A stretch of DNA of 64,000 bases from Thioalkalivibrio sulfidiphilus (lineage in GTDB: Bacteria > Pseudomonadota > Gammaproteobacteria > Ectothiorhodospirales > Ectothiorhodospiraceae), in the NCBI RefSeq assembly GCF_000377945.1, contig NZ_KB898935.1:1-64000 (forward strand), read 5' to 3'. The translations under genes were made by a program, and so were the position numbers. The number at the start of each line of letters is the position of its first letter. The first letter of the stretch is position 1. Below are positions 40,301-62,227 of the stretch, piece by piece. The notes under the pieces are model-generated. The model did no database searches and had not been told where the DNA came from. It saw only the letters and a list, made by a program, of their open reading frames with translations.

Positions 40301-41157
40301 CCTGCCTGTCCCAGTTGCGGCCCCTGGCCATCCAGCGTGGCATCGCGCTCCCTGGTCAGGCCTGCGCCTCGACCTGGGTCCGTGCCGACAGGCGGCGACT
40401 GACCCAGGTCCTGTTGAACCTGGTATCCAATGCCATCAAGTACAACCGCGACGGCGGGCGCGTGGACATCGAATGCCTCGTGCAGCCCGACGGGCGGACA
40501 CGCGTCAGTGTGCGCGATACCGGCCGCGGTATTGCCCGGGACGACCTGCCGCGTCTGTTCCGGCCCTTCGAGCGCCTTGAATCCGCCTACGAAGGCATCG
40601 AGGGCACGGGGATCGGCCTGGCCCTGGCGAAGCGGCTGGTGGAGGCCATGGGCGGGGCGATCGGGGTGGACAGCGTACCGGGGGAGGGGAGTTGTTTCTG
40701 GTTTGAGCTGGAGGCGGTGGGCAGTACAAACGGAGGCGTCGTCGCGGAGACCCCCTCGCAGGCCCTGCCGGCCTCCGCGCATGCTGTGCGCAAGGTGCTC
40801 TGTATCGAGGACAATCCAGCCAACCTGAGACTGGTCAGCAAACTGCTGGCGGCGCGACCCGATGTGCGTCTGCTGGAAGCGCGGGATGGCCGCAGCGGGG
40901 TGCAGCGTTGTCTCTCCGAGCGCCCCGACCTGGTCCTGCTGGACATCAACTTGCCGGACATGGATGGCTTCGAGGTGTTTCGCCTGCTGAGGGAGAACAT
41001 CGAGACCCGTCACATCCCGATCATTGCCGTCACCGCCAATGCGATGCCCGGCGATCAGGAGCGGGGCAGGCAGGTGGGTTTCGACGCCTATCTCATCAAG
41101 CCCCTGGATGTCACCCGTTTCTTCGAGTGCCTGGATCGATACCTGGATTCACCCTAG
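37372..41157 (+). CDS. Membrane-bound multi-PAS hybrid histidine kinase
   Basis: The 1261-residue protein begins with about seven hydrophobic helices (residues 10-230), a MASE-like integral membrane sensor. Five PAS domains follow (the first with [15 protein letters not shown]), then HisKA ([20 protein letters not shown]), HATPase ([25 protein letters not shown]) and a receiver ([22 protein letters not shown]). It overlaps the previous kinase gene by ATGA. Its stop codon TAG coincides with the outer TA(G) of the MITE-like element that follows; the empty site would also read TAG, so the protein end is unaltered. Confidence 0.9.
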
Positions 41158-41420
41158 TGTCCTGAGTCAGAGATTCGTTGCATTTCAGAGCCCCGCACAA
41201 GACCCAAGGCAAGGCGCGGGCCGCAGGCAATGGCAAGCCCTTGGCAAGGACCGCAACGCCGCATTGGGTCTTGTGCGGGGCTCCCTGCGGGCGGGCCTGT
41301 CCGGGCGCTCGGCCGCGTTGCTCTCGCTCGAATGGGCCTGCCCGTCCTTCGCTCGTGCGCCTTGCCGCGCATCCCGTACAGGCCCGCTGAAATGTAACGA
41401 ATCTCTGACTCAGGACACTA
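41155..41420. mobile_element. MITE-like element with 34-bp terminal inverted repeats
   Basis: Left end 41155-41188 (starting TAGTGTCCTGAGTCAGAGAT) and right end 41387-41420 are inverted copies with one mismatch. The element starts and ends with TA, as expected for TA-target insertion (IS630/mariner style). Inside, a perfect 18-bp inverted repeat (41189-41206 with 41265-41282, AGCCCCGCACAAGACCCA) forms a second hairpin. No transposase is encoded in its 266 bp, so it is non-autonomous. Confidence 0.85.
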
Positions 41421-41493
41421 GCGTCCTCGGCTTGCTACGCGCACCTGACTCCAACAGGCTCCCGGGCGGGCTTGTGTCTCATTTTCAGAAAGT

Positions 41494-43262: not shown

Positions 43263-43390
43263 TTGCAACCCTTCAATGGTGACCCGCATCGGTCCCCTCG
43301 CGACAATAAGCTGTGAACCCCGCCAGGCCCGGAAGGGAGCAACGGTAACAGTGGACTTGGGCGCCGGGGTGTGGCTGGTGCGGGTTGCCA
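43263..43390 (+). ncRNA. ffs: Signal recognition particle RNA (4.5S, small bacterial type)
   Basis: The conserved apical domain is present: CCAGGCCCGGAAGGGAGCAA in the asymmetric and GGAA-loop region, and GGACTTGGGCGCCGGGGT on the other side. The ends pair as GCAACCC (43265-43271) with GGGTTGC (43382-43388). The position directly before dnaX is the usual one in gammaproteobacteria. The exact ends are estimated from base pairing. Confidence 0.88.
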
Positions 43391-43399
43391 CCTTTAAGG

Positions 43400-43552
43400 G
43401 CAGTGGCAAGTCTCAAGTGGCTAGTGGCAAGGAAAGTCAACCGACTTTCTCCCTCCCCCTCATGGGGGAGGGCCGGGGTGAGGGTGGTTTTCCTTGCCAC
43501 TTGCCACTTGCCACTTGCCACTTGCCACTTGCCACTTGCCACTTGCCACTGC
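43400..43552. repeat. Heptamer inverted array 2 (GGCAAGT / ACTTGCC units)
   Basis: The right arm (43492-43552) has eight head-to-tail ACTTGCC units. The left arm (43400-43432) is a shorter, more degenerate complement (GCAGTGGCAAGTCTCAAGTG, then GCTAGTGGCAAGG). Between them lies a further palindromic repeat (CTCCCTCCCCCTCATGGGGG). The array fills the space between SRP RNA and dnaX. Confidence 0.85.
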
Positions 43553-43640
43553 ATTCATCGCCACTGTTCCATTGAGCCAAGGTGTGCCGCCTGCGGTATC
43601 ATGGTCCTCCCATGCCTACCCAGAACACGTAGCATCCCAA

Positions 43641-45314
43641 ATGTCTTATCAGGTTCTTGCCCGCAAATGGCGTCCGCGCAGTTTCGAGGAGATGGTGGGC
43701 CAGCCCCATGTGGTGCGCGCCCTCTCCAATGCCCTGCGCGACCAGCGTCTGCACCATGCCTACCTGTTCACCGGGACCCGGGGCGTGGGCAAGACCACCG
43801 TGGCCCGGGTGCTGGCCAAGTGCCTGAACTGCGAAACGGGCGTGACCGCCACACCCTGCGGCCAGTGCAGCGCCTGCCGTGAGATCGACGAGGGGCGCTT
43901 CATCGACCTGATCGAGGTGGATGCCGCCTCCCGCACTAAGGTGGAGGACACCCGCGAACTGCTGGACAACGTCCAGTACGCGCCCACCCGGGGCCGCTAC
44001 AAGGTGTACCTCATCGACGAGGTGCACATGCTCTCCACCCACAGTTTCAACGCGCTGCTCAAGACCCTGGAAGAGCCGCCGCCCCACGTGAAGTTCCTGC
44101 TGGCCACCACAGACCCGCAGAAGCTGCCCGTGACCATCCTCTCCCGCTGCCTGCAATTCAGCCTCAAGGCCATGCCCGCGGACATGGTGGGCGCGCACCT
44201 GAGGAAGGTGCTGGAGCAGGAGGGGGTTGATTTCGACCCGCCGGCCATCCTGCGCCTGGCCCGGGCCGCCTCGGGCAGCATGCGCGATGCCCTGAGCCTG
44301 CTAGACCAGGCCATCGCCTACGGCAGCGGCGCCCTGCGTGACGACGACGTGCGCGAGATGCTCGGCGCCATCTCCCAGGATCACCTGGAGCGCATGCTCC
44401 AGGCCCTGGCGGCCGGTGACGGCCCCGCCCTGATGGGGGCCGTGGACGACCTGGCCCAGCGGGCCCCGGACTACAACGCGGTGCTGGGAGAACTGGTCTC
44501 CCTGCTGCACCAGGTGGCCCTGGCCCAGCAGGTCCCCGAGGCCCTGGACGAGGGGGCGGTGGATGTGGCGGCGGTGCAGGCCCTGGCCCGGAGCCTGGCC
44601 CCGGAGGACGTGCAGCTCTATTACCAAATCGCCCTGCTGGCCCGTCGCGACCTTCCCCTGGCCCCGGATCCCCGGGCGGGCTTTGAGATGGCCCTGCTGC
44701 GCATGCTGGCCTTCCGGCCGGCGGGCGCCGGGGAGACCACGGCAGCTTCGTCCGTGCGCAGCCGGCCAGCGCCGGCACCCCGTAACGAGACCCAGGCACG
44801 GGCACCGGTCGAGCCCGCGCGCAGCGCGACGACACCGGAGCCGGCACCTGCGGTGCGCGAACCCCGAGTGCCCGAATCCATAGCCTCTCGACCGGCCCCG
44901 ACCCCGGCCTCGACCCCGGCCTCGACGACGGCCCCCGGTGGGCTCGACTGGGTGGCCACGGTGGCGGCCATGGGGCTGGGCGGCCCGGTTTTGAACCTGG
45001 CCAACCACTGCGCCGTGGGCCGCTACCAAGATGGCGAGCTGGTGCTGAGCCTGGCCGCCCGGCACGAGACCCTGAAATCCGCAAACAGCGAACGGCGCCT
45101 GATCGAGGCGGTCAGACAGTATCTGGGTGAAGACCTCAAGGTACGCATCGAGATCGGCGAGCCCACGGCGGAGACCCCGGCACAATCCCAGGTACGCGCC
45201 TCGGAGGAACGTCAGCGGGCGGCGGAGGCGGCGGTGGCCGGCGATGAACTGACCGCCCGTCTGGGCGAGGTCTTCGGTGCCCAGGTGGTGCCGGGCTCCG
45301 TGAAACCCGTGTGA
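43641..45314 (+). CDS. dnaX: DNA polymerase III tau/gamma subunit DnaX
   Basis: A 557-residue clamp-loader ATPase: [21 protein letters not shown] at the start, Walker [10 protein letters not shown], zinc-binding cysteines in [28 protein letters not shown], and the sensor SRC. An Ala/Pro-rich linker (about 375-445) leads to a C-terminal tau domain. I see no A-rich slippery sequence of the E. coli type, so a frameshift gamma form is not supported here. The ATG at 43641 gives the family start; upstream codons lie in the heptamer array. It heads the dnaX-ybaB-recR operon. Confidence 0.95.
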
Positions 45315-45391
45315 GCCCCGAACTCGGGGCGGCAGGCGAGAGGCCTTGCCGCCATACAACGAACAACCCCAGCAAGACAGGTGATGAGATG

Positions 45392-45715
45392 ATGAAAGGT
45401 GGACTTGGCAACCTGATGAAGCAGGCCCAGAAGATGCAGGAGCAGATGGCCCGCGCCCAGCAGGAGCTGGCCAACATGGAGGTGACCGGGCAGTCCGGCG
45501 GCGGTCTGGTAAGCGTGGTGATGACCGGCAAGCACGAGGTGCGCCGGGTGGCCATCGATCCGAGCTTGTTGGCGGACGACAAGGACATGCTGGAAGACCT
45601 GGTGGCCGCGGCCATCAACGATGCCGTGCACCGCGTCGAGGAGACCACCAAGGAACGCATGGCGGGCCTGACCGCGGGCATGAGCTTGCCCCCGGGTTTC
45701 AAGCTGCCGTTCTAG
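45392..45715 (+). CDS. ybaB: YbaB/EbfC nucleoid-associated protein
   Basis: A 107-residue protein with the [19 protein letters not shown] opening and a Gly-rich turn ([14 protein letters not shown]). The dimer binds DNA and the gene always lies between dnaX and recR. The second of two adjacent ATGs (45392) was chosen because AGGTGA lies 7 bases upstream. Confidence 0.93.
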
Positions 45716-45722
45716 TCGCTGC

Positions 45723-46316
45723 GTGAAGTCCTCGCTGCTGGATGAACTGATCGACGCCCTGCGCTGCCTGCCGGGCGTGGGGCCCAAGTCCGCCCAGCGC
45801 ATGGCGCTGCACCTGCTGGAGCGGGACCGCCCCGGCGGCGAGCGCCTTGCCGCCGTGTTGCAGGATGCCATGGCGCGCATCGGCCACTGCAAGGTGTGCC
45901 GTACACTCACGGAACACGAACTCTGCCGGGTCTGTGCCGATCCCGGGCGCCAGCGGGATGTTTTGTGCGTGGTGGAGACACCCGCCGATGTGCTGGCGGT
46001 GGAGCAGGCCACGGGATTCCGCGGCCAGTACCACGTGCTGCTGGGGCATCTCTCGCCCCTGGACGGGATCGGCCCCGAGGAACTGGGCCTGGACCGGCTC
46101 GAGGCCCGCCTGGACGAGGGCGAGATCCGCGAGGTGATCCTGGCCACCAGCACCACTGCCGAGGGCGAGGTCACCGCCCACTACATCGGCGAGCTGGCCC
46201 GGGCCCGGGGCATCCGCAGCACCCGTATCGCCCACGGCGTGCCCCTGGGCGGAGAGCTGGAATACGTGGACCGCGGCACCCTGTCCCACGCCTTCGAGGG
46301 CAGGCGCGAATATTGA
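45723..46316 (+). CDS. recR: Recombination mediator RecR
   Basis: A 197-residue protein with the helix-hairpin-helix ([20 protein letters not shown]), a four-Cys zinc finger (CKVC ... CRVC), a Toprim domain ([12 protein letters not shown]) and a C-terminal [12 protein letters not shown]. It works with RecO, encoded at 62.2 kb, to load RecA at gaps. The start is GTG at 45723, 7 bases after ybaB ends. Confidence 0.95.
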
Positions 46317-46325
46317 TTAAAGCGC

Positions 46326-46398
46326 AGAGACAAGAGACAAGATACAAGAGGCAAGTGGGAGGTCTTTCTTGTATCTTGCCTCTTGGATCTTGTCTCTA
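46326..46398. repeat. Heptamer inverted array 3 (GAGACAA / GATACAA / GAGGCAA units)
   Basis: Left arm units (46326-46355) are GAGACAA, GAGACAA, GATACAA and GAGGCAA. The right arm (46369-46398) reads, on the other strand, GAGACAA, GATCCAA, GAGGCAA and GATACAA. The order of variants differs between arms, so pairing is imperfect. The array ends directly at the AGGAG ribosome-binding site of hinT and could hide it in a hairpin. Confidence 0.8.
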
Positions 46399-46409
46399 GG
46401 AGTCATGCA

Positions 46410-46754
46410 ATGACGACCTGTATCTTCTGCAAGATTGCCAATGGTGATATCCCTGCCGAGATCGTCTACCAGGACGACCAGGTGCTGGCCTTCCGGGATC
46501 TCAATCCCCAGGCGCCTCTGCACGTGCTGGTGATTCCCCGCAAGCACATCGCCACCATCAATGACCTGACCCCCGAGGACGAGGCCCTGGTGGGCCGAAT
46601 GTACCTGGCGGCGCGTCAGGTGGCCGAGGAGGCCGGTTTGGCGACGCGCGGCTATCGTACCGTGATGAACTGCAACTCCGAGGCGGGTCAGAGTGTCTAT
46701 CATTTACACTTACATGTGTTGGGTGGCCGCTCCATGCAGTGGCCGCCGGGCTGA
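46410..46754 (+). CDS. hinT: HinT-type histidine triad purine phosphoramidase
   Basis: A 114-residue protein with the CIFCKIANGDIPAEIVYQDD opening, the helix LNPQAPLHVLVIPRKHI and the triad HLHLHVLGGR. HinT hydrolyses adenosine phosphoramidates and lysyl-AMP. The ATG at 46410 follows AGGAG by 7 bases. It is distinct from the more divergent HIT protein at 3057. Confidence 0.93.
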   Translation: MTTCIFCKIANGDIPAEIVYQDDQVLAFRDLNPQAPLHVLVIPRKHIATINDLTPEDEALVGRMYLAARQVAEEAGLATRGYRTVMNCNSEAGQSVYHLHLHVLGGRSMQWPPG

Positions 46755-46836
46755 GGCCGACGGGATAACGGCGAAAGGATACGGCGTAACCCGAGGCGCG
46801 ACCGGCAGGGGGAAACCCCGAGGGGAGGGCTGAACA

Positions 46837-47631
46837 ATGAACAAGGCACGCATCTGTACCTGGGCCATGCTGGCCGGTGTCCTATGGGGTACGGCGGTCA
46901 TGGCCGAACCTGAATCCACCGGCTACCAGGCGGGTGTGTTCCTCGAGACCTATCCCGACCGCTGGCAACTGACCGGCCGTCATCACGATCCCCTGCTGAC
47001 CACGCCCACCAGCCGGACCATCCTCAACGCCCAGCTGGACAACTTCCTGCGTGGTGATGCCGGCTACCTGTTCGGGGTCGATGGCCGCATGCAGTGGGCC
47101 AAGGCAGACCCGCTGAGCGAATTGCCCGTGCATCAGGATGCGGATTTGCGCAGCCTGCAGTTCCAGGCTCTGGGCGGCTACCGTTTCGGGGCCCATGGCG
47201 ATCCGGTGCGCTACGACCTGCGCATGGGTCTCGGTTACCAGGGTTGGAGCCGGGAGGCACTGCCCGGCAGCGGCCTGGCCGACGAGGATCTGGGCTTGCT
47301 GTACACCCAGTTCTCCGGCGGTCCCCGCTTCGCCAGCGGCGGCTGGCAGGGTTTCCTGGAACTGGGTGTGCGCATGCCCGTCTCGCTCACGGACTCCGGC
47401 ATGTACGGCCGGGCGGATCCCGCTGAGGCCAATGGCCTGCGCAGCTCCGGTTTCATCAGCTTCCAGAATCAGTTCCAGCTGGGCGACAGCAGCGCCCTGC
47501 GCCTCGATCTCTACTACGACAGCCAGCGCTACGGCCTGCCCAACGCCCGGGGCAGCGATCTGTATGGAGATGACGCCTTCAACGCCCGGGATCGCGACGT
47601 GTTCGGGGTGGAGATGGGGGTGAGGTTCTGA
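46837..47631 (+). CDS. Putative outer-membrane beta-barrel protein
   Basis: A 264-residue protein with a signal peptide (basic MNKAR, hydrophobic run, cleavage near VMA-EPE). The mature part alternates short polar turns with amphipathic strands rich in Gly, Tyr and Leu, and ends in MGVRF, the C-terminal Phe signature for BAM-mediated assembly. I recognise no named family; the size suggests 8-10 strands. It has its own GGGGAGG ribosome-binding site and is followed by a strong inverted array. Confidence 0.65.
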   Translation: MNKARICTWAMLAGVLWGTAVMAEPESTGYQAGVFLETYPDRWQLTGRHHDPLLTTPTSRTILNAQLDNFLRGDAGYLFGVDGRMQWAKADPLSELPVHQDADLRSLQFQALGGYRFGAHGDPVRYDLRMGLGYQGWSREALPGSGLADEDLGLLYTQFSGGPRFASGGWQGFLELGVRMPVSLTDSGMYGRADPAEANGLRSSGFISFQNQFQLGDSSALRLDLYYDSQRYGLPNARGSDLYGDDAFNARDRDVFGVEMGVRF

Positions 47632-47638
47632 GGGGGGG

Positions 47639-47740
47639 ATTCAAGATTCAAGATTCAAAATTCAAAATTCAAGATTCAAAGGGGTGAAGCGAAGTACCTT
47701 TGAATTTTGAATTTTGAATTTTGAATCTTGAATCTTGAAT
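47639..47740. repeat. Heptamer inverted array 4 (ATTCAAR units, 44-bp hairpin)
   Basis: The left arm (47639-47682) has six ATTCAAG/ATTCAAA units plus GG; the right arm (47697-47740) is its reverse complement with a single mismatch over 44 bp. The loop is 14 bases. The order of G and A variants is mirrored between arms at five of six units. It fills the junction of two convergent genes and directly abuts the rsgA stop. Confidence 0.92.
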
Positions 47741-48610
47741 TTATTTCTTCATCGCCAGATAACTGCCGTAGCGCTCGCCACTGATTTCTCCCGCTTCGAC
47801 CGCCGCCTTGATGGCGCAGCCGGGTTCCCGGTCGTGGTTGCAGTTGTGGAAGCGGCACTGACCCAGGTAGGGCCGGAACTCCACGAAGCCCCGGGCCAGT
47901 GCCTCGGCGGGCAGGGGCGGGGGGGTGAAGTCCCGCACGCCCGGCGAGTCGATCAGATCACCTCCGCCCGGCAGGTGATAGAGGCTCGCGGCCGTGGTGG
48001 TGTGGCGGCCTTCTCCGGTGGCTTCCGAGACCTCCCCGATGCGCAGACTTTCCCCGGGCAACAGGGCCTGGATCAGGGATGACTTGCCCACGCCCGACTG
48101 TCCCACCAGGATGCTGGTCCTGTCCTTGAGCTCCCCACGCAGATCATCGAGTCCCAGGCCGGCACTGGCGCTGGTGTGCAGCACCGGGTAACCCAGTTGC
48201 CGATAGCGTTCTTCCATCCCGGGTTGCGGGTCCGAGGGATCCGGTTCCAGGTCGGCCTTGTTGAGCACCAGCAGTGCCCGGGCATCCAGGTGTTCGATGG
48301 CGACCAGGTAGCGGTCCACCAGGGGCCACTGGGGCGGCGGGGGGCGGGCGATGACCACGACTACCTGATCCAGATTGGCGGCCACGGGCCGGGTCTGGCC
48401 CCGGGGGTCCAGGCGTTGCAGGAGGTTGTGCCGGGGCAGGATGGCGGTGACCACGTCATTGCCCGAGTCGCTGGGACTCCATTCCACCCGGTCGCCGCAC
48501 ACCGCGTCCTGCAAGCGGCGACGGCTGGTGCAGCGTCGGCGCTGGCCCGTCTCGTCCTCGATCACCAGCTCCGCGCCGAAGCGGGTGACCACCCGTCCCG
48601 TGTGAGTCAC
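47741..48610 (-). CDS. rsgA: Ribosome small-subunit biogenesis GTPase RsgA
   Basis: A 289-residue circularly permuted GTPase: an N-terminal OB fold, then G4 (LNKADLEP), G1 (GQSGVGKSSLI), G3 (DSPGVRDF) and a C-terminal zinc site (CRFHNCNHDREPGC). It checks maturation of the 30S decoding centre. The start is GTG at 48610 with GGGA upstream on the coding strand. Confidence 0.95.
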   Translation of the reverse strand: MTHTGRVVTRFGAELVIEDETGQRRRCTSRRRLQDAVCGDRVEWSPSDSGNDVVTAILPRHNLLQRLDPRGQTRPVAANLDQVVVVIARPPPPQWPLVDRYLVAIEHLDARALLVLNKADLEPDPSDPQPGMEERYRQLGYPVLHTSASAGLGLDDLRGELKDRTSILVGQSGVGKSSLIQALLPGESLRIGEVSEATGEGRHTTTAASLYHLPGGGDLIDSPGVRDFTPPPLPAEALARGFVEFRPYLGQCRFHNCNHDREPGCAIKAAVEAGEISGERYGSYLAMKK

Positions 48611-48676
48611 GCGTGATCCGGTCCCTGGGTCTGAAGGGTTTGGAGGGTGTCGGGACGGATCACGGGCTTGGCAGGC

Positions 48677-48979
48677 TCAGAATCTGTAGAAGTTGCTGTT
48701 GAGGTATTCCACCACGGCCATCACGTCCTCATCAAACCAGCGCAGGCCCAGGGTGCTCTCGCAGCGCCGAACCTGGGCGATGAGCTGATCCCGGGAGCCC
48801 ACCATGCGGTTGGGGCGGGTGTACAGGGCCGTGCCGTTGCCGCCCACCATGCTGGTGTGGCAGCTGACGCAGTTGGCGGCATGCAGTTGCTGGCCGCGCT
48901 TGACGTCGGCCTGGGCCGTGGCGCCGAACAGCAGGGCCAGGATGGCGATCACGGCGGTGAGGGTGAGGGTCGGTTTCAT
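48677..48979 (-). CDS. Small periplasmic c-type cytochrome
   Basis: A 100-residue protein with a signal peptide (MKPTLTLTAVIAILALLFGA) and one haem-binding site CVSCH (about residues 36-40). The Met ligand is probably in TRPNRMVGS. It resembles the monohaem cytochromes often found beside rsgA and orn in gammaproteobacteria. Its electron partners are not evident. The ATG at 48979 has a near-perfect AGGAGGA upstream. Confidence 0.88.
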   Translation of the reverse strand: MKPTLTLTAVIAILALLFGATAQADVKRGQQLHAANCVSCHTSMVGGNGTALYTRPNRMVGSRDQLIAQVRRCESTLGLRWFDEDVMAVVEYLNSNFYRF

Positions 48980-49165
48980 GGGTGGGTCCTCCTGGAAGCG
49001 CGTGCAGCCTGCTGACACAGGCACAAATCTTAGTGTAAGACTAGGGCATTGCCGGTGCCGAGTACACAGCCCAATGCTCTCGGTCCCGTGCCGCCCCGCC
49101 TCGAACACCCCCGGGGGATGCGTGTACACTGCCTCCCGAAGCCATATGCTGCACAAAGGACGTCC

Positions 49166-49711
49166 ATGAATCCCAATCCCGACAACCTGGCCTGGATCGA
49201 TCTGGAGATGACCGGTCTGGACACGGACAACGACTACATCATCGAGATCGCCACCCTGGTCACTGACAAGGACCTGAATATCCTGGCCGAGGGCCCGGTG
49301 ATCGCCGTGCATCAGAGCGATGCGATCCTGGCGCGCATGGACGACTGGAATCGGGATACCCACGGCCGCTCCGGGCTCATCGACCGGGTCAGGATGAGTC
49401 TCCATACGGAGATCGAAGCGGAGCAGGAGACTCTGCGTTTCCTGGAAAAATACATCCCCCGTCGCGGCTCACCCATGTGCGGCAACAGCATCTGCCAGGA
49501 CCGCCGTTTTCTGGCCCGCTGCATGCCGGACCTGGAGGCCTTCTTCCACTACCGCAACCTGGACGTGAGCACCCTCAAGGAACTGGCACGGCGCTGGGCG
49601 CCGGGTGTGGCCAATGCCTTCACCAAAGAATCCAATCACCAGGCCCTGGACGACATCCGCGCCTCGGTGCAGGAACTGCGGCATTACCGGGAACACTTTA
49701 TTAAGGTGTGA
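49166..49711 (+). CDS. orn: Oligoribonuclease
   Basis: A 181-residue DEDDh exonuclease with [32 protein letters not shown] and HQALDDI holding the catalytic acids and His. It degrades 2-5-mer RNAs, including pGpG from cyclic di-GMP breakdown, which is relevant given the GGDEF/HD-GYP genes at 8-15 kb. The ATG at 49166 follows AAAGGA. Confidence 0.96.
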
Positions 49712-49738
49712 AGTGGGAATTGGGAAGTGGGAATGAAA
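49711..49738 (+). repeat. Short heptamer run (AAGTGGG / AATTGGG)
   Basis: Three 7-bp units, AAGTGGG, AATTGGG and AAGTGGG, lie just after the orn stop. There is no inverted partner. It looks like a minimal or decayed member of the heptamer family found elsewhere in the window. Confidence 0.5.
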
Positions 49739-49744
49739 GGCAAG

Positions 49745-49769
49745 AAGGCGAGCTTGGCTCGCCTTTTTT
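49745..49769 (+). terminator. Rho-independent terminator of orn
   Basis: AAGGCGAGC and GCTCGCCTT form a 9-bp stem with a TTG loop, followed by a run of T. Confidence 0.92.
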
Positions 49770-49787
49770 GTCAGCGTAGCCCCGGTG

Positions 49788-49856
49788 GTAGGTCGGGCTT
49801 TAGCCCGACAGCACGGCTTCGACCGGACACCGCTGTCGGGCTAAAGCCCGACCTAC
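49788..49856. repeat. REP-like inverted repeat pair (copy 2)
   Basis: Arms 49788-49812 and 49832-49856 are perfect 25-bp inverted copies around a 19-bp spacer, with the core GTCGGGCTTTAGCCCGAC. The family is the same as at 271-335. It lies between two convergent genes. Confidence 0.85.
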
Positions 49857-49872
49857 GCCTACGGGACAGGTG

Positions 49873-50706
49873 TCAACGCGGGGTGCCGGTCTCCACGGGC
49901 ACATCCGGGGCGTTGCCCCAGTCGGACCAGGCGCCGGGATAGCCGCGTACCCGCTCGAAGCCCAGGTGCCTGAGCATCAGCCAGGTGTGGGCGGAGCGGT
50001 GGTGGGTCTGGCAGTAGACCACCACCTCCTTGTCGGGGGTGATGCCCAGGCCGGCCAGTTCCTCGCGCAGCTCATCGGCGGGGCGCAGACGCAGGTTGCG
50101 GTGGATGTCCATGGCCCGGGTCCATTCGTAGTGCACGGCACCGGGAATGTGTCCGCCGCGGGCGGCTCGCATGTCGCTGCCCTGGTATTCACCTGCGGTG
50201 CGGGTATCCACCAGGCACAGGCCAGGGTCGTCGAGGTGCTCGAGGATCCAGGCCCGCTCGGCCACATCCTCGCCGGTGTAGTGCCAGGTATTCCGGGTAG
50301 GTGCGGGCGGCGCGACAGGCCGGCTGTCGAGCGGGTGGCCTTCCTGGGCCCAGGCATGCAGGCCGCCGTTGAGCAGGCTGGCGTGGTGGTGACCGTAAAC
50401 GGCCAGGGTCCAGATCAGGCGCGCGGCCTTGCCGCCGCCCTCGTCGTCGTACGCGATCACCCGGGTGCTCGGGGTGATGCCCAGCTCACCCAGGACGGCG
50501 GCCAGGGTGTCGGCGTCCGGCAGCAGGCCCTTGACGGGATCGCGACTGGCCACGATGCGCCCGTAGTCCAGGTGCAGGGCGCCGGGCACATGGGCCTGGG
50601 CGTAGGTCTCCGGTTTGCACAGGTCCACGACGCACATGCCCGGTGTGCCGAGCAGGTGTTCCAGCTCGGCGGGTTCGATCAGCAGGGGTGTTGGCCGTGG
50701 TGTCAT
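49873..50706 (-). CDS. Two-domain rhodanese (thiosulfate/3-mercaptopyruvate sulfurtransferase)
   Basis: A 277-residue protein with two rhodanese domains. The second has the active-site loop YCQTHHRSAHTW with catalytic Cys; the first lacks it. The CQTHHR loop is closer to the thiosulfate type than to the CGSGVTA loop of mercaptopyruvate enzymes. The ATG at 50706 follows GGAGA. It may serve sulfur metabolism, but it stands alone between orn and nadB. Confidence 0.87.
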   Translation of the reverse strand: MTPRPTPLLIEPAELEHLLGTPGMCVVDLCKPETYAQAHVPGALHLDYGRIVASRDPVKGLLPDADTLAAVLGELGITPSTRVIAYDDEGGGKAARLIWTLAVYGHHHASLLNGGLHAWAQEGHPLDSRPVAPPAPTRNTWHYTGEDVAERAWILEHLDDPGLCLVDTRTAGEYQGSDMRAARGGHIPGAVHYEWTRAMDIHRNLRLRPADELREELAGLGITPDKEVVVYCQTHHRSAHTWLMLRHLGFERVRGYPGAWSDWGNAPDVPVETGTPR

Positions 50707-50776
50707 GGGCGTCTCCGAAAGCTGAGGGAAGAATGTCTTGTGATCAGAATTGCGCCGGTGGCCAAACAAAAAATTT

Positions 50777-50845
50777 TTTGCCACAGAGGTCACAGAGTCA
50801 TTTATGCGGTGGTTTCTCTGTGTCCTCTGTGAGCTCTGTGGCAAA
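50777..50845. repeat. Inverted repeat between nadB and rhodanese genes
   Basis: TTTGCCACAGAGGTCACAGAG on the left pairs with the complementary CTCTGTG, CCTCTGTGAG and CTCTGTGGCAAA on the right. Both genes are on the minus strand, and the long T-run beyond the stem (50774-50779 region) would suit termination after nadB. The CCACAGAG/CACAGAG motif is a repeat seen in many proteobacterial genomes. Confidence 0.65.
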
Positions 50846-50860
50846 TCGCTTTTCTGAGCG

Positions 50861-52489
50861 CTACACCCAGCCTGGCGGCGCAAGTATGGTGGGCTTTCCG
50901 TCCATGGCCGGATCCCGCTCCGGGTAGTCCAGGGTGTAGTGCAGGCCGCGACTCTCACGGCGCTGCATGGCGCAGCGGATGATGATGTCGGCCACCATCA
51001 CCAGGTTGCGCAGCTCCAGCAGGTCGTTGGTGACCCGGAAGTGGCTGTAGTACTCGTCGATCTCCGCCATCAGCAGGTCCACGCGATGCTGGGCACGCTC
51101 CAGGCGCTTGGTGGTGCGCACGATGCCCACGTAGTCCCACATGAAGCGGCGCAGTTCGTCCCAGTTGTGGGAGACCACCACCTCCTCGTCGGAATCGGTG
51201 ACCCGGCTCTCGTCCCAGGCGGGGATGGCGAGCGCCGGCAGTGTGGCGGTGTCCCGGGACAGGATGTGCTCGGCGGCGGCCCGGGCGAACACCAGGCATT
51301 CCAGCAGGGAGTTGCTGGCCATGCGATTGGCGCCGTGCAGGCCGGTGTAGGCGGTCTCGCCGATGGCGTAGAGGCCCTCCAGGTCGGTGCGGGCATCCAG
51401 GTCCGTGACCACGCCGCCGCAGGTGTAGTGGGCGGCAGGTACCACGGGGAGCGGCTCCTTGGTCATGTCGAAGCCGAATTCCAGGCAGCGCTCGTGGATG
51501 GTCGGGAAATGGCCTTTCACGAAGTCCGCCGGCTTGTGGCTGATGTCCAGGTACACGCAGTCCGCGCCCAGGCGCTTCATCTCGTGGTCGATGGCCCGGG
51601 CGACGATGTCCCGGGGGGCCAGTTCGCCCCGGGGGTCGAAGCGGTGCATGAAGGGCTGGCCGTCGGGCAGCAGCAGCCGGCCGCCCTCGCCGCGCACCGC
51701 CTCGGAGATCAGGAAGGACTTGGCCCGGGGGTGGTAGAGGCAGGTGGGGTGGAACTGCATGAATTCCATGTTGGCCACCCGGCAGCCGGCGCGCCAGGCC
51801 ATGGCGATGCCGTCGCCGGTGGCGCCGTCCGGGTTGCTGGAGTAGAGGTACACCTTGCTGGCGCCGCCGGTGGCCAGCACCACGCAGGGGGCATGGAAGA
51901 TCTCCACGCCGTTGGAACGATCCAGCACGTAGGCCCCCACGCAGCGGTTGGGGCCGTCCAGGCCCAGCTTCTCGCGGGTGATCAGGTCCACGGCGATGTG
52001 CTGTTCGAACAGTTCGATGTTCGGGGCGCGCCGGGCCTGACCCACCAGGGTGTCCTCCACGGCCTTGCCCGTGGCGTCGGCGGCGTGCACCACGCGCCGG
52101 TGGCTGTGGCCTCCCTCCCGGGTGAGGTGCAGCTGGATGCTGCCGTCGGGCAGGGTCTCCTCGGTGAAGGGCACCCCCAGGTCCTGGAGCCAGCGGATGC
52201 TGGCCGGGCCGTGTTCCACCGTGTAGCGGACCGACCGCTCGTCACACAGACCGGCACCGGCCGTCAGGGTGTCCCGCACGTGGGCCTCCAGGGAGTCCTT
52301 GTCGTCCAGGACCGCGGAGATGCCACCTTGGGCATAGAAGGTGCTGCCCTCGGTGATGGGACCCTTGCTGAGCACGGCCACCCGACGGTGGGGGGCCAGG
52401 TGCAGGGCCAGGGACAGGCCCGCCGCGCCGCTGCCGATGATCAGCACGTCATGGTGGTGGACAGCGGACTTGGCTTGAGGCGGGGTCAT
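50861..52489 (-). CDS. nadB: L-aspartate oxidase
   Basis: A 542-residue flavoprotein with [11 protein letters not shown] for [15 protein letters not shown], the HPTCLYHP loop, and [26 protein letters not shown]. It makes iminoaspartate for NAD synthesis with NadA. The position divergent from rpoE is the same as in Pseudomonas. Confidence 0.95.
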
Positions 52490-52597
52490 GATTTGAGTTA
52501 TTTTGTCACAGTTTTTGCGGCCTTAGCGTGGCAACCACGGGTCGCGCCACATGGGTTCGCCCGCTCGGGCGGGCATTCATCAGGCAACTATCCGCCA

Positions 52598-52624
52598 GAA
52601 CTTACCGCTGGTTTTCAGGTCAAT
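52598..52624 (+). promoter_or_regulatory. Candidate sigma-E autoregulatory promoter of rpoE
   Basis: GAACTT (52598-52603) and TCAAT (52620-52624) are 16 bases apart, close to the sigma-E/AlgU consensus GAACTT-N16-TCnnA. rpoE operons are commonly autoactivated from such a site. Confidence 0.55.
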
Positions 52625-52668
52625 CGCTGGTAGGGTACAGGACGTGCCCTGAGAGGGGGAGTGCCCGC

Positions 52669-53244
52669 ATGGGCAAGAAGGTCACCGACGAGGAGCTGGT
52701 CAAGCGTGTTCAGGCCGGAGACAAGAAAGCTTTTGACGCCCTTGTGCTCAAGTACCAGCACAAGATCGTCAATCTTGTCTCACGCTATGTGCACGACCCC
52801 TCTGCCGCCCTGGATGTCTCCCAGGAGGCCTTCATCAAGGCCTACCGGGGGCTGTCCAATTTCCGTGGTGACAGTGCCTTCTACACCTGGCTCTACCGGA
52901 TCGCCATCAACACGGCGAAGAATTATCTCGTCTCCCAGAACCGGCGCACCCCCGACTACGAGGTGGACGCCCAGGACGCCGAGCAGATGGGCGGTGAATC
53001 CGCTCTCAAGGAATATGCAACCCCCGAGGGTGAATTGCTGTCACAGGAGATACAGGCCGCGGTGCAGCGCACCATCGAGACCCTGCCTGAGGACCTGAAG
53101 ACCGCCATCACCCTGCGGGAACTGGAAGGCATGAGTTACGAGGAGATAGCGCAGACCATGGGATGCCCGATCGGCACCGTGCGCTCGCGCATCTTCCGGG
53201 CCCGGGAGGCCATCGACCGGACCCTGCGGCCCCTGCTGGAGTGA
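52669..53244 (+). CDS. rpoE: Extracytoplasmic sigma factor RpoE (AlgU type)
   Basis: A 191-residue ECF sigma factor with region 2 (YQHKIVNLVSRYVHDPSAALDVSQEAFIKAY, FYTWLYRIAINTAKN) and region 4 (ELEGMSYEEIAQTMGCPIGTVRSRIFRAREAI). The ATG at 52669 follows GGGGGAG. It directs the envelope stress response and is held by RseA, encoded next. Confidence 0.96.
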   Translation: MGKKVTDEELVKRVQAGDKKAFDALVLKYQHKIVNLVSRYVHDPSAALDVSQEAFIKAYRGLSNFRGDSAFYTWLYRIAINTAKNYLVSQNRRTPDYEVDAQDAEQMGGESALKEYATPEGELLSQEIQAAVQRTIETLPEDLKTAITLRELEGMSYEEIAQTMGCPIGTVRSRIFRAREAIDRTLRPLLE

Positions 53245-53293
53245 TCCCGGGGACGCCCATGGTTATTTTCAATCGAGTAGAGAGTGTACGCCC

Positions 53294-53899
53294 ATGACCG
53301 CCACGAAGAATGAACGCCTGTCCGCCCTGGTGGACGACGAGGCCGACAGCTTTGAGGTACGACGCCTGGTGGATGAGCTTGGCAAGCATCCCGAGGACCT
53401 GGCCCAGTGGGGCCGATACCACCTGATCGGCGACGCCATCCGCGGCGGTCTGAGTCGCTCGGCCCCGGCAGACTTCGCCAGTCGGGTGAGCGCCCTGATC
53501 GAGCAGGAACCGGCCCTGACGGGCGTGCCCCATCAGGCCAGCCGCGGCCTGCTCAAACCGGTGGCCGGCGTTGCCATGGCCGCCTCCGTGGCGGTGGCTG
53601 TGCTGGTCGGTGTCATGAACGTGGGCGGTACCCCGGACAACAGCCTGCCGGCCCCGGTGCTGGCCGATCGTTCCGCGCCCAATCAACTGGCCGCGCAGGG
53701 CATCAGGCCGGTGGCCGAAGCCGAGCGCTCCGTGGCGATCAGCAGCGTGCCGGTGAGCCGCGAAGCTCCCCGCCTCAGCCGCCTGGAGACGCCCGATGCC
53801 CGGCTCAACAGCTTCATCGTCAACCATGCTGAGCATGCCGCCGGGCAGGGCCTGATGCCCGTCGTGCGTGTGGTTGGCTACGAAACCCCCGGGGAATAA
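53294..53899 (+). CDS. rseA: Anti-sigma factor RseA (MucA)
   Basis: A 201-residue protein with an N-terminal sigma-binding domain (ERLSALVDDEADSFEVRRLVDEL, LAQWGRYHLIGDAIRG), one membrane helix (about 89-106) and a periplasmic tail that would bind RseB and be cut by DegS-type proteases. The tail ends GYETPGE and lacks the C-terminal aromatic motif usual for DegS exposure. Confidence 0.92.
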   Translation: MTATKNERLSALVDDEADSFEVRRLVDELGKHPEDLAQWGRYHLIGDAIRGGLSRSAPADFASRVSALIEQEPALTGVPHQASRGLLKPVAGVAMAASVAVAVLVGVMNVGGTPDNSLPAPVLADRSAPNQLAAQGIRPVAEAERSVAISSVPVSREAPRLSRLETPDARLNSFIVNHAEHAAGQGLMPVVRVVGYETPGE

Positions 53900-53902
53900 G
53901 GC

Positions 53903-54877
53903 ATGGGTCTGCGGGGACTCACCCGGTACGTACTGGCCGTGGGCCTGCTGGCCTCCAGTCATGCCTGGGCCGACGAGCACCGGGCCGATGCACTGCTGGA
54001 TCGCATGATCGAGGCGGTCAGGAGTCTCAGTTACGAGGGCACCTTCGTCTACATCCACGGCCAGAAGACCGAAACCATGCAGATCGTCCACACCCGGGAC
54101 GAGCGTGGTGAGCGGGAGCGTCTGCTGTCCCTGACCGGCGAACCCCGCGAGGTGATCCGCGACGAGGACGTACTCACCTGCGTCTGGCCTGCCAGCCGCT
54201 CGGTGGTAATCGAGCCCCGGCGCAGCCGTCTCGGTGGTCTGCCCGCCGCCATCCCGGACCGTCAGTTCGGTCCCGACTCTCCCTACCGCTTCCAGGTGGA
54301 AGGGGAGCAGCGCATCGCCGGCCTGAGCTGCCGCACCCTGCAGATCATCCCCAACGACGACCTGCGCTACGGTCACCGCCTGTGCATCGATGAGGACTCG
54401 GGCATGCTGCTCAAGTCCGAGATGCTCGATCACCAGGGCAACACCATCGAGCAGTTCATGTTCACCAGCATCCAGTTTCCGGATTACGTTCCCGACGACC
54501 GTTTCATTCCGGTCATGAAGGGTGAGGGCTTCACCACCCACCGGGTGGATGCCCAGAGCGAGATGAACCCGGATCCGGGCTGGAGGGTGCGAGATATCCC
54601 CGACGGTTTCCGAGTGGCAACCGTGAGCAAACGTCCCATGGCCGCAAATCTCAACCCGGTACAGCACCTGGTGCTGAGCGATGGGCTGGCCACGGTCTCG
54701 GTGTTCATCTCCCGGGCCAGCAGCCTGGACGACCTCTACATGGGCCTGACCCAGTCCGGTGCCCTACACGCCATGGCGGTGCCCGCCGGCGAATACCAGG
54801 TCACGGTGGTGGGCGAGGTGCCCGAGAGCACAATTCGCATGATCGCCGACTCCGTCTACCACGAGGCCCGTCCGTGA
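53903..54877 (+). CDS. rseB: Periplasmic regulator RseB (MucB)
   Basis: A 324-residue protein with a signal peptide (cleaved near SHAWA-DEH), a lipoprotein-carrier-like N-terminal domain (SYEGTFVYIHGQKTETMQIVH) and a C-terminal domain (GWRVRDIPDGFRVATVSKRP). It protects RseA from proteolysis and senses mislocalised lipoproteins or LPS. It starts 3 bases after rseA. Confidence 0.93.
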   Translation: MGLRGLTRYVLAVGLLASSHAWADEHRADALLDRMIEAVRSLSYEGTFVYIHGQKTETMQIVHTRDERGERERLLSLTGEPREVIRDEDVLTCVWPASRSVVIEPRRSRLGGLPAAIPDRQFGPDSPYRFQVEGEQRIAGLSCRTLQIIPNDDLRYGHRLCIDEDSGMLLKSEMLDHQGNTIEQFMFTSIQFPDYVPDDRFIPVMKGEGFTTHRVDAQSEMNPDPGWRVRDIPDGFRVATVSKRPMAANLNPVQHLVLSDGLATVSVFISRASSLDDLYMGLTQSGALHAMAVPAGEYQVTVVGEVPESTIRMIADSVYHEARP

Positions 54878-55347
54878 TCGAGGAGCAGGCCCGGGTCATC
54901 AGTGTCGAACAGGGGCATGCCTGGGTGGAGACCCAGCGTCGTTCCACCTGCGGCAGCTGCGCCGCCAACAAGGGTTGCGGCACCTCCGTGATCGCCAAGG
55001 TGGTGGGCAACCGGCGCAGCCGGGTGCGCGCCATCGACCCCGTCGGCGTGCGCCTGGGTGACGAGGTGGTGGTGGGCATCGAGGAGGCGGCCCTGGTGCG
55101 TGGCTCCCTGGCAGTCTATACCGTGCCCCTGATCACCCTGCTGGTGGGTGCCCTGCTGGCCCGCTGGCTGTGGCCGGCGGCCGGTGAGCCGGTGGTGGTG
55201 CTGAGCGGCCTGGCGGGACTGGCCGCGGGGCTGGTGTGGCTGCGGCTGTTCGCCGGCCGGGTCAGTTCCGATCCCCGTTACCAGCCCGTGATCCTGCGCC
55301 GCCTGCACAGCCTGCATCCCCGCGCCAATGGTGTTTTGGCCCCCTGA
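54874..55347 (+). CDS. rseC: SoxR-reducing / sigma-E regulator RseC
   Basis: A 157-residue protein with a Cys cluster (RSTCGSCAANKGCG) and two membrane helices (about 74-92 and 100-118). RseC takes part in the SoxR-reducing complex and modulates sigma-E. It starts at GTG 54874, overlapping the rseB stop. Confidence 0.88.
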   Translation: MIEEQARVISVEQGHAWVETQRRSTCGSCAANKGCGTSVIAKVVGNRRSRVRAIDPVGVRLGDEVVVGIEEAALVRGSLAVYTVPLITLLVGALLARWLWPAAGEPVVVLSGLAGLAAGLVWLRLFAGRVSSDPRYQPVILRRLHSLHPRANGVLAP

Positions 55348-55391
55348 TTGTCATAATCCCCACTGGGTTTATTCCCCGGACCGGTTTCCAG

Positions 55392-56825
55392 ATGATGGTT
55401 TTCTCGCGTAGTACCCTGCCTTTCGTCCTGTTGTTCATCACCCTGGTGTTTTCCGCGGCTGCCCAAGGGCGCGCCGCACTGCCGGATTTCGTCCCCCTGG
55501 TGGAGGACAACAGCCCGGCGGTGGTCAACATCAGCACCAGCCGCAAGATCGCCCGCGGTGGGCGTGATCATCCCCAGTTCCGCATCCCCGACATGCCCGA
55601 TGACGGCATGCTGGGCGACCTGCTGCGGCGTTTCTTCGGCGAGGGCGGCGAGATGCCCGAGCAGTTCGACACCAGCTCCCTGGGCTCGGGCTTCATCATC
55701 TCCCGGGACGGCTACGTGGTGACCAATCACCATGTCATCGAGGATGCCGACGAGATCATCGTGCGCCTGAGTGACCGGCGCAGCTTCCCCGCCACCGTGG
55801 TCGGTTCCGACCCCAAGAGCGACGTGGCCCTGCTCAAGATCGAGGCCAGCGACCTGCCGACCCTCAAGCTGGGTAACTCCGAGCAGCTCAAGGTGGGCGA
55901 GTGGGTGCTGGCCATCGGCTCGCCCTTCGGCTTCGACCATTCCGTGACCGCGGGCATCGTCAGTGCCAAGGGCCGTGCCTTGCCCACGGAGAACTACGTG
56001 CCCTTCATCCAGACCGACGTGGCCATCAACCCGGGCAACTCCGGCGGTCCGCTGTTCAACATGAAGGGCGAGGTGGTCGGCATCAATTCCCAGATCTACA
56101 GCCGCACCGGCGGTTTCATGGGCCTGTCCTTCGCCATCCCCATCGAGATGGCCATGGAAGTGGTCGAGCAGCTCAAGACCCAGGGCTACGTGAGCCGGGG
56201 CTGGCTGGGTGTGCTGATCCAGGAGGTCACCCGGGAACTGGCCGACTCCTTCGGCATGAGCCGCCCCACCGGCGCCCTGGTGGCCCGGGTGCTGCCCGAC
56301 AGCCCGGCGGAGAAGGCCGGCGTGCGGGTGGGCGATGTGATCCTGACCTTCAATGGCGTGGAGGTTACCCGCTCCAGCGCCCTGCCGCCCCTGGTGGGCC
56401 GTGCCCCGGTGGGCAAGGATGCCCGGGTCGAGATCCTGCGCGACGGCCGCAAGCAGACCCTGCGGATACGCATCGCCGAACTGCCGCCGGACGACGAACT
56501 GGCCAGCCGTACGCCGGCCGAGCCTGCGGCCCCGTCGGCCCCGGAAACCCACTTCGGCATGACCCTGGAGCCGGTGCCTGCCGAGCTGCGCAAAGACCTG
56601 GACCTGGAGCAGGGCGGCGTGCTGGTGGCCGGGGTAGGCGAGGGCGCGGCCCGGGATGCCCGTATCCAGCGCGGCGACGTGCTGGTGATGATCAACAACC
56701 AGCGCATCGAATCCCCCGCGCATTTCGCCGAGCTGGCGGGTAAACTCACCCCCGGCAGCAGGGTCCCCGTGCTGGTGCAGCGTCGCCAGGGTCCGGTCTT
56801 TCTGGCACTGAAGGTGCCGGATTGA
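55392..56825 (+). CDS. mucD: Periplasmic serine protease DegP/MucD
   Basis: A 477-residue HtrA protease with a signal peptide (cleaved near GRA-ALP), the catalytic His (VTNHHVI), Asp (KSDVALLKI) and Ser (NPGNSGGPL), and two PDZ domains (GWLGVLIQEVT onward and FGMTLEPVPA onward). The position in the sigma-E operon is that of Pseudomonas mucD. Two adjacent ATGs (55392, 55395) are possible starts. It is a quality-control protease and chaperone. Confidence 0.94.
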   Translation: MMVFSRSTLPFVLLFITLVFSAAAQGRAALPDFVPLVEDNSPAVVNISTSRKIARGGRDHPQFRIPDMPDDGMLGDLLRRFFGEGGEMPEQFDTSSLGSGFIISRDGYVVTNHHVIEDADEIIVRLSDRRSFPATVVGSDPKSDVALLKIEASDLPTLKLGNSEQLKVGEWVLAIGSPFGFDHSVTAGIVSAKGRALPTENYVPFIQTDVAINPGNSGGPLFNMKGEVVGINSQIYSRTGGFMGLSFAIPIEMAMEVVEQLKTQGYVSRGWLGVLIQEVTRELADSFGMSRPTGALVARVLPDSPAEKAGVRVGDVILTFNGVEVTRSSALPPLVGRAPVGKDARVEILRDGRKQTLRIRIAELPPDDELASRTPAEPAAPSAPETHFGMTLEPVPAELRKDLDLEQGGVLVAGVGEGAARDARIQRGDVLVMINNQRIESPAHFAELAGKLTPGSRVPVLVQRRQGPVFLALKVPD

Positions 56826-56829
56826 CCCC

Positions 56830-57064
56830 GTGGCACGGACGCTGATCCTCTACAGCCGGGCCGGATGTCACCTGTGCGAGCAGATGCACGCGCAGCTTGC
56901 CGCCATTGATCTCCCGGACGATGTTTCCCTGAACACCGTGGATGTGGACGCGGACCCTGCGCTGCGCGCGCGTTTCAACGTCAAGGTGCCGGTGCTGGCC
57001 CTCGACGACGAGATCCTGTGCTGCCATTTCCTCGATGAAAACGAATTGCGACAGGCCCTGAGTG

Positions 57065-57072
<8 letters not shown>
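56830..57072 (+). CDS. Glutaredoxin-like protein
   Basis: An 80-residue thioredoxin-fold protein with the redox motif [11 protein letters not shown] near residue 9-19 and the cis-Pro in KVPVLAL. It belongs to the DUF836/glutaredoxin 2-like group and probably reduces protein disulfides. The start is GTG at 56830, 4 bases after mucD. Its stop overlaps the lepA start. Confidence 0.85.
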
Positions 57073-58879
<1,807 letters not shown>

Positions 58880-58943
58880 AAACAGGCAGTCAGGAACAGG
58901 CAGCCGAGAACTGCAGGGCTGAAAGACTTAAGGGGAGCAGTGC

Positions 58944-59747
58944 ATGACCTTCGATCTTGAACTGGTGCTGGTGCTGGGCACGCTCGTCACGGGCGTGGTC
59001 TGGCTGCTGGATGCGCTGTGGTGGAGCAAGGCCAGGAAGGCGCCGGTGCCCGTGGAGGGAGAGAGCCGCAATGCCCGTCCCCCCGAGCCCTGGTACGTGG
59101 AGTACTCCAAGTCCTTCTTCCCGGTGCTGATCATCGTGCTGGTGCTGCGCTCCTTCGTGGTGGAGCCGTTTCGCATCCCCTCGGGCTCCATGATGCCCAC
59201 CCTGCTGGTGGGCGACTTCATCGTGGTCACCAAGTACAGCTACGGCATCCGCCTGCCGGTAACCCGTCAGCTGATCATCCCCACTGGTCTGCCCAAACAT
59301 GGTGACGTGGCGGTATTCCGCTATCCTGAGAATCCCAGAGAGGATTACATCAAGCGGGTGGTGGGACTGCCCGGGGACCGGGTGGCGTTCTACAATAAGA
59401 CCCTGTTCATCAACGATCGCGCCGTGACCCAGCGGGAGATCGGGACCTACGAGGGCAGCGGTTCCGGGGACGTGATGACCGGTGCGACCCTGGCCGAGGA
59501 GACCATCGGCGATGTCACCCACCAGATCCTGATCTGGCCCAACCGGCCATCGGTGCAGGGCGAGATCCTAGTCCCCGAGGGGCATTACTTCGTGGTGGGT
59601 GACAACCGGGACAACAGCAACGACAGCCGCTACTGGGGGTTCGTGCCCCAGGAGAACCTGGTAGGCAAGGCCGTGATGATCTGGATGCACTGGGATTTTG
59701 CTGACCGCTCCTCGGATCTGAGCCGGATCGGGACGCGGATACGTTAA
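58944..59747 (+). CDS. lepB: Signal peptidase I
   Basis: A 267-residue membrane protease with two N-terminal helices (about 5-25 and 56-72), catalytic Ser in PSGSMMPTL and Lys in DYIKRVVGLPGD, and GDNRDNSNDSRYWGFV. It cleaves Sec and Tat signal peptides, including those predicted for MucD, RseB and the cytochrome here. Confidence 0.96.
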   Translation: MTFDLELVLVLGTLVTGVVWLLDALWWSKARKAPVPVEGESRNARPPEPWYVEYSKSFFPVLIIVLVLRSFVVEPFRIPSGSMMPTLLVGDFIVVTKYSYGIRLPVTRQLIIPTGLPKHGDVAVFRYPENPREDYIKRVVGLPGDRVAFYNKTLFINDRAVTQREIGTYEGSGSGDVMTGATLAEETIGDVTHQILIWPNRPSVQGEILVPEGHYFVVGDNRDNSNDSRYWGFVPQENLVGKAVMIWMHWDFADRSSDLSRIGTRIR

Positions 59748-59769
59748 TCACGTCAAGGGGGAGATGAAC

Positions 59770-62105: not shown

Positions 62106-62106
62106 A

Positions 62107-62210
62107 ATTCAACATTCAAGATTCAACATTCAAAGGGGGCAGCTATGCTGGAGATTCAGGCCGTACGGCCCTGCTCAGCCCCTTTGAATGTTGAATCTTG
62201 AATTTTGAAT
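62107..62210. repeat. Heptamer inverted array 6 (ATTCAAN units, 32-bp hairpin)
   Basis: The left arm (62107-62138: ATTCAAC, ATTCAAG, ATTCAAC, ATTCAAA, GGGG) and the right arm (62179-62210) pair over 32 bp with one mismatch. The 40-base loop contains the palindrome GGCCGTACGGCC (62159-62170). The array begins 2 bases after the era stop and ends 17 bases before the recO start, leaving no room for a normal recO ribosome-binding site. Confidence 0.9.
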
Positions 62211-62227
62211 CTCGATTTCATTACCCC

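Follow-up and report, generated by a model that had tools for sequence, protein, structure and literature searches.

The closest described relatives of the repeats analysed here are the GGGAATC heptads of Xanthomonas, which the accessible text of their report presents as dispersed intergenic units with variable positions, forming 70 and 75 convergent inverted pairs, lying near stop codons and seldom found between divergent genes (PMC4692102). Four units are preferred, the number of units varies between close species, and quadruplex formation was suggested by that source. Intergenic heptads are also known from the Beggiatoaceae, sulfur-oxidising gammaproteobacteria like the genus studied here. 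In these, as far as the accessible text goes, TAACTGA units form direct repeats upstream of start codons, with one inverted case in 170 sets (PMC4679880), whereas the heptads described below are inverted and lie on the stop-codon side.

Two components of the present system are known already, as their sources present them: inverted heptads, from Xanthomonas, and loop inversion, from plastids and, by template switching, from yeast and rRNA. Hairpin loop inversion in chloroplast non-coding DNA was reportedly described by Kelchner and Wendel in 1996. In plastid non-coding hairpins, loops are found reverse-complemented between related taxa and a single-event origin is assumed (PMC6005162); in yeast, template switching between inverted repeats inverts spacers of 2-5 bp and sometimes homogenises the arms (PMC8604942); and in rRNA, inverted loops are typically 4 nt and up to 7-8 nt long (PMC8794818). 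No report of loop inversion in bacterial heptad arrays was found in the open-licence literature searched by title and start of abstract.

In this study, we analysed a hairpin of (N)ATTCAA heptads, hereafter array 4, located at positions 47639-47740 of a stretch of 64,000 nucleotides from Thioalkalivibrio sulfidiphilus (the window), where the sequence matches its earlier description. Two arms of 44 nt, 98% complementary, enclose a spacer of 14 nt. The left arm (47639-47682, + strand) carries six ATTCAA cores, has the junction letters G,G,A,A,G when read towards the loop and ends with a closing AGG; the loop (GGTGAAGCGAAGTA, 47683-47696) follows, and the right arm (47697-47740, - strand) is an inverted array of six cores. 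The hairpin takes up the interval that separates two convergent genes: the stop codon of a 264-aa ORF (46837-47631, + strand; no match when compared with NCBIfam and Pfam) lies 7 nt from the left arm, and the stop codon of rsgA, encoding the ribosome small-subunit GTPase (47741-48610, - strand), abuts the right arm. At the same site in a sister species, the same genes flank an array of 2+2 units, against 6+6 in the genome under study, and the loop is exactly reverse-complemented. Together with its closing bases (18 nt), this loop is single-copy in each genome, in + orientation in the genome under study and in - orientation in the sister species. We consider that slippage within single arms, exchange between the arms and a preferred arm form shared by all loci best explain the arrays, with a probability of roughly 0.7.

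Heptad hairpins and their genomic setting

The genome under study (G000) is a 3.05 Mb draft of 69 contigs, and the sister species (G004) and three further genomes (G001-G003) belong to the same genus. Searches of G000 gave 393 matches to four spaced CAA motifs, against 129 for the reversed control, and 275 matches to three ATTCAA heptads, against 0 for the control. Paired arrays were present in all five genomes of the genus and absent from the 14 other family members and the 11 other members of the class examined. From several pattern searches and the window we assembled a sample of 76 hairpins, to which the spaced-CAA search contributed the first 100 of its 393 matches; one additional detection was a run of N and was excluded. 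The corresponding flanks were located in G004 for 74 of the 76, and 70 hairpins were paired through both flanks, which are 95.6% identical.

According to our own simple gene caller, which gives an uncurated annotation, 40 hairpins lie between codirectional genes, 25 between convergent genes, 7 between divergent genes and 4 at edges, with a median distance to the stop codon of 5.5 nt (67 of 90 within 0-20 nt). Compared with hairpin-free gaps, convergent positions are in excess (25/72 against 16/108, p=0.003) and divergent positions are depleted (7 hairpins against 25/108, p=0.03). Array 4 is one member of a genome-wide class of heptad hairpins set directly against stop codons. The nearest known kind, on the accessible text of PMC4692102, is that of the inverted Xanthomonas heptads, which share with these arrays the tandem arrangement of 7-nt units, some positions of which are conserved and others variable, the pairing in inverted, convergent orientation, the proximity to stop codons and the rarity between divergent genes. 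The modal number of four units is also shared: a search pattern indifferent to how many units an arm holds gave 30 hairpins, in which 38 arms out of 60 have four, and no hairpin but array 4 is 6/6. Unlike the Xanthomonas unit, ATTCAAN has no G-tract, so the four-unit preference in this genus cannot be explained by quadruplex formation. These arrays thus uncouple the four-unit preference of heptads from G-quadruplex formation, to which it had been ascribed in Xanthomonas.

A symmetrical RNA or DNA hairpin in such positions is probably a 3'-end barrier, serving convergent or neighbouring genes as a mark or protection of their 3' ends. Selection on the RNA hairpin, as a 3'-end stabiliser or bidirectional terminator, might by itself keep the arms complementary and leave inversion as a neutral by-product; we regard this as possible, although we lean against it, and it is compatible with the explanation that we prefer. 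As RNA, array 4 is predicted to form a very stable fold (-69.5 kcal/mol, z -13.3), and the position near stop codons, the convergent excess and the divergent depletion are all as expected for such selection. So is the pattern of mirrored change: among the 15 loci with arms of equal length in both species, where 6 substitutions fell in the left and 8 in the right arm, mirrored positions were substituted together twice, against 0.12 expected (p=0.005). Pairing was kept in one of the two cases, in a comparison whose registers were chosen in G000 and which is biased toward loss of the pair in G004. Substitutions and indels are mostly uncompensated, which argues against such selection. A strict consensus scan of 43300-63000 for intrinsic terminators (a GC-rich short-loop stem followed by a U-run) returned 6 sites against 7.6 expected, none of them in these hairpins.

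A preferred arm form shared between loci

Arms resemble one another in part because they share a form. Four-unit arms of G000 favour alternating junction letters (AGA in 17 arms, 10.7 expected; GAG in 7, 1.7 expected; p=0.0075), a preference that was non-significant in G004 (p=0.17). Complete orders of units, GAAGTAC-GAAGTGT-GAATTGG-GAAGTGC in the GAAGTG family and GTGGCAA-GTCTCAA-GTGGCTA in the GTGGCAA family, reappear at unrelated loci. Given the shared alternating order and the modal four units, similar arms are possible without locus-specific copying. Some locus-specific likeness exists nonetheless, and order makes up little of it. Similarity is slightly higher between the two arms of a locus than between arms taken from separate loci (in G000, 0.544 against 0.435, p=0.004; in G004, p=0.04), and the G content of left and right arms is correlated in G004 (rho 0.65, p=1e-5; in G000, rho 0.23, p=0.14), which together point to some locus-specific homogenisation. 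Rare units common to both arms numbered 3 against 0.8 expected in G000 (p=0.03) and 1 against 1.0 in G004.

The recurrence of arm orders (AGA and the two orders above) at unrelated loci would also be expected if the arm of about four units were a mobile REP-like sequence, the hairpin two such arms in inverted orientation, and each arm a copy of a family consensus. REPIN and REP elements carry a conserved tag tetranucleotide at the foot of the stem, and their presence tracks that of a Y1 REP transposase. Like them, the present arrays are dispersed, intergenic and paired in inverted orientation around a short loop; unlike them, on the accessible text of the two reports, the arms consist of tandem heptads in variable number (PMC3116915, PMC3733652). 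We consider such an origin unlikely, although the modal four units fit it and the heptad family differs between G000 and G004 at the same intergenic site at six loci of the sample (idx 2, 21, 26, 61, 63 and 67). The outer ends of the arms have no invariant bases just outside them that could serve as a REP-type tag, such as the GTAG/CGTC named in the title of PMC3733652. Y1 transposase domains are present, but 17 of the 20 relatives have them, among these family members that lack hairpins; occurring in genomes with and without hairpins, they do not discriminate for or against a transposase as the cause. The loops of ATTCAA hairpins look locus-unique. Across different loci, loops formed more similar pairs than shuffled loops did (for example, 16 against 3 at score 13), the strongest matches being nested repeats in GTGGCAA-type and GAAGTG-type loops.

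Several heptad families are only one or two bases apart (GATTCAA, GATACAA, GAGACAA, GAGGCAA and GTGGCAA), and the change at idx 61 resembles a conversion unit by unit. At idx 10 and 55, hairpins of GCGAAGG-like and CACGAAG-like repeats stand in G004 in place of the G000 heptads. A few G004 sites orthologous to G000 hairpins have no heptads.

Variant order and arm-length changes

The earlier note had read the mirrored order of unit variants in array 4 as proof that its arms were copied. The mirrored order is present, with five of six letters agreeing in the version given there, but it does not exceed chance (p=0.20). Read from the loop outward, the left arm gives G,A,A,G,G and the right arm A,A,A,G,G; four of five letters agree, a match that has p=0.30 when the letters within one arm are permuted exactly, with the loop as anchor. 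Array 6, another (N)ATTCAA hairpin (62107-62210, with arms at 62107-62138 and 62179-62210), had been said to match at three of four variants; two of three junctions agree, but again within chance (permutation p=0.33).

Over all (N)ATTCAA hairpins parsed in G000 (44 of the 70 compared loci), 68 of 125 loop-anchored positions match (0.544), against 0.498 after permutation (p=0.12), and in G004 (37 of 70 loci parsed) 55 of 105 match (52%), against 55% expected (p=0.77). Order matched in T. denitrificans at p=0.027 (18 loci), a value uncorrected for the five sets, and not significantly in the MAG SKOF (p=0.14, 11 loci) or in other taxa (p=0.98, 22 loci). Pooling the 95 loci with G004 left out gave p=0.106. 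With about three informative junctions per arm, this test picks up strong copying and misses weak copying. Families other than (N)ATTCAA gave p=0.12 for GANNCAA (8 loci), p=0.81 for GTNNCNA (10 loci) and p=0.04 for GAANTNN (9 loci, several arms offset by one unit). The last match is a family feature, because the same order recurs at many loci. When arms are aligned at other loci and in relatives, order correlation is thus mostly absent, which is largely the outcome that the earlier note had named as telling against its claim. The argument from mirror order to arm copying fails, since the match lies within chance, arms share an alternating order across loci and their lengths cluster; by itself, the order in array 4 is no evidence of copying.

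The same note had derived the arms of each locus from one inverted duplication, or from correction in a hairpin, which would account for a mirrored order. Changes in arm length between the species bear on this directly. At loci with unchanged loop orientation, 28 of 38 non-zero changes are multiples of 7 (p=2e-16), counts in which idx 38 and 65 were kept although their flank matches run into the array and make their arm lengths unreliable (idx 42, affected in the same way, is an inverted locus outside these counts). Coordinated changes, which the earlier note had proposed to look for, were found in length at 7 loci (4 of the 7 with the same sign) and in sequence at the two mirrored columns, but at 14 loci a single arm changed by heptad steps, and changes in left and right arms are uncorrelated (rho 0.16, p=0.29). 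Nor do the unit counts of the left and right arms go together in the set of 30 hairpins (rho 0.14, p=0.45), and for the parsed sets their correlation is weak (rho 0.33 and 0.43). Array 4 itself, with four of five letters in agreement and arms that differ alike between the species (6/6 against 2/2), is what a duplication or correction of whole arms would give, as are the coordinated substitution at idx 17 and the weak similarity of arms within loci. With mostly single-arm length changes and a genome-wide order effect absent in both species, we hold inverted duplication or hairpin correction at each locus to be quite unlikely, and an origin of the arms by one inverted duplication finds no support here.

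Inversion of hairpin loops between the two species

Loop orientation was called with a threshold set for each loop by shuffling it 200 times. Among the 70 paired hairpins, 44 loops have the same orientation in G000 and G004, 11 are inverted, and 15, without clear orientation or replaced, were excluded. Inverted loops, 12-38 nt long, make up 11 of the 55 scorable loops (20%; 95% interval of the inverted fraction 0.10-0.33), corresponding to about 0.26 inversions per locus at 0.044 substitutions per site. Inversion was not associated with loop length (p=0.10; p=0.18 when split at 40 nt). Because the array 4 loop and 11 of 55 loops overall are inverted, the arms do exchange DNA. These inversions, unlike the variant order on which it had been based, support the kind of process proposed earlier, namely template switching between the arms or their exchange within a hairpin. 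At idx 27, the loop has flipped, yet a TTTAAAGG arm variant adjoins the same loop side in G000 and G004, and idx 24 and 11 have a similar pattern; at most of the remaining inverted loci, the bases of the arms do not distinguish travel with the loop from staying in place. A comparison with the rest of the genus did not polarise the inversion at the rsgA locus, where G003 has an ATTCAA hairpin with a different loop and G001 and G002 have no heptads.

Control hairpins free of heptads (74 found; 54 without a fetched ortholog, 3 unscored) gave 17 loops in the same orientation and none inverted. The contrast of 0/17 with 11/55 has p=0.056, most controls having arms of 10-12 nt, and the controls do not establish that loop inversion is specific to heptad hairpins.

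Template switching in yeast and rRNA is described as inverting exactly the spacer that two inverted arms enclose (PMC8604942, PMC8794818), and the orthologous sites compared here show the same outcome. Unlike in those cases, as far as the accessible texts go, the loops here are 12-38 nt long, the arms are tandem repeats, and inversion affects 20% of the comparable loci of one bacterial species pair. Plastid loops are similarly reverse-complemented between related taxa, with stems that the accessible text does not describe as tandem heptads (PMC6005162), and the accessible text on the Xanthomonas heptads makes no mention of loop inversion (PMC4692102).

Inversions this clean and frequent could also be the work of a site-specific invertase. 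We consider this very unlikely, since at least two arm families are affected (ATTCAA, and GAAGTG at idx 24), loop and arm lengths vary, and orientation is kept in 80% of the scorable loops. That the inverted loops are assembly artefacts of a 69-contig draft is scarcely credible, with most hairpins of about 60-140 nt and unique loops that single reads should span, 44 loops agreeing between the species and arm variants holding their position beside the loop.

In the explanation that we favour, each arm would gain and lose 7-bp units separately by replication slippage, in keeping with the step size and the one-arm nature of the changes observed. Occasionally, the arms would exchange through the hairpin, perhaps by template switching between the strands or by recombination of the inverted repeats. 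Such exchange would flip the unique loop, as found between the two species, sometimes carry loop-proximal arm bases along, and probably make the arms more equal from time to time. All arms would have in common a favoured unit, a favoured alternating order and a modal number of about four units. Slippage, exchange and a shared arm form then account for the likeness of arms, with no need for an inverted duplication to have founded each locus. The joint change of both arms of array 4 (6/6 against 2/2) runs counter to this explanation, as do the somewhat greater likeness of arms within a locus, the correlated G content of the arms in G004 and the order effect seen in T. denitrificans alone. The hairpins offer a natural genome-wide read-out of arm-to-arm exchange, with dozens of bacterial loci whose unique loops can be scored in any pair of strains.

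Occurrence in other phyla and further repeats in the window

A scan of a species-genome collection for hairpins of 3+3 ATTCAA units found 50 stretches, over half of them from the genus. The others include MAGs assigned to Nitrospirae, Nitrospira, Acidobacteriota, Thermoanaerobaculia, Rikenellaceae, Cyclobacteriaceae, Cytophagales, Bacteroidetes, Deltaproteobacteria, Patescibacteria and other Gammaproteobacteria; the viral contigs scanned gave no match. It is a long shot, prompted by the NATTCAA unit forming hairpins in unrelated phyla, that these are one widespread class of self-inverting 3'-end elements. In the genus, such elements would lie at stop codons, keep to about four units per arm through something other than G-quadruplex selection or simple slippage, and flip in a clock-like manner (about 0.26 per locus per roughly 4.4% flank divergence). 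In one Thermoanaerobaculia MAG, two loci have related loops in opposite orientation.

Within the window, array 6 retains its loop orientation in G004 and has both arms shorter there. A hairpin of GAGACAA/GATACAA/GAGGCAA units downstream of recR (46326-46401), probably array 3 of the earlier note, where it was suggested that it may be older, likewise has an orthologous hairpin in G004, built of different units. In a GTGGCAA/GTCTCAA/GTGGCTA hairpin (43402-43552), the right arm is expanded and the unit order of the left arm is found again at other loci. A heptad hairpin at 3459-3640 has the opposite polarity, with TTG-side units before and ACAA-side units after the loop, the units being GTCAGTN and CAGACAA/CTGACAA. 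Palindromes of the GTAGGTCGGGCTTTAGCCCGAC type occur at 49788-49856 and 271-335; we take them to resemble GTAG-tagged REPs, and the loop of the one at 49788 has the same orientation in G004. An inverted repeat of 38 nt (95%, arms 198 nt apart) at 41151-41424 possibly represents the terminal inverted repeats of a small element, and a perfect inverted repeat of 21 nt, with arms 220 nt apart, lies at 60907-61168.
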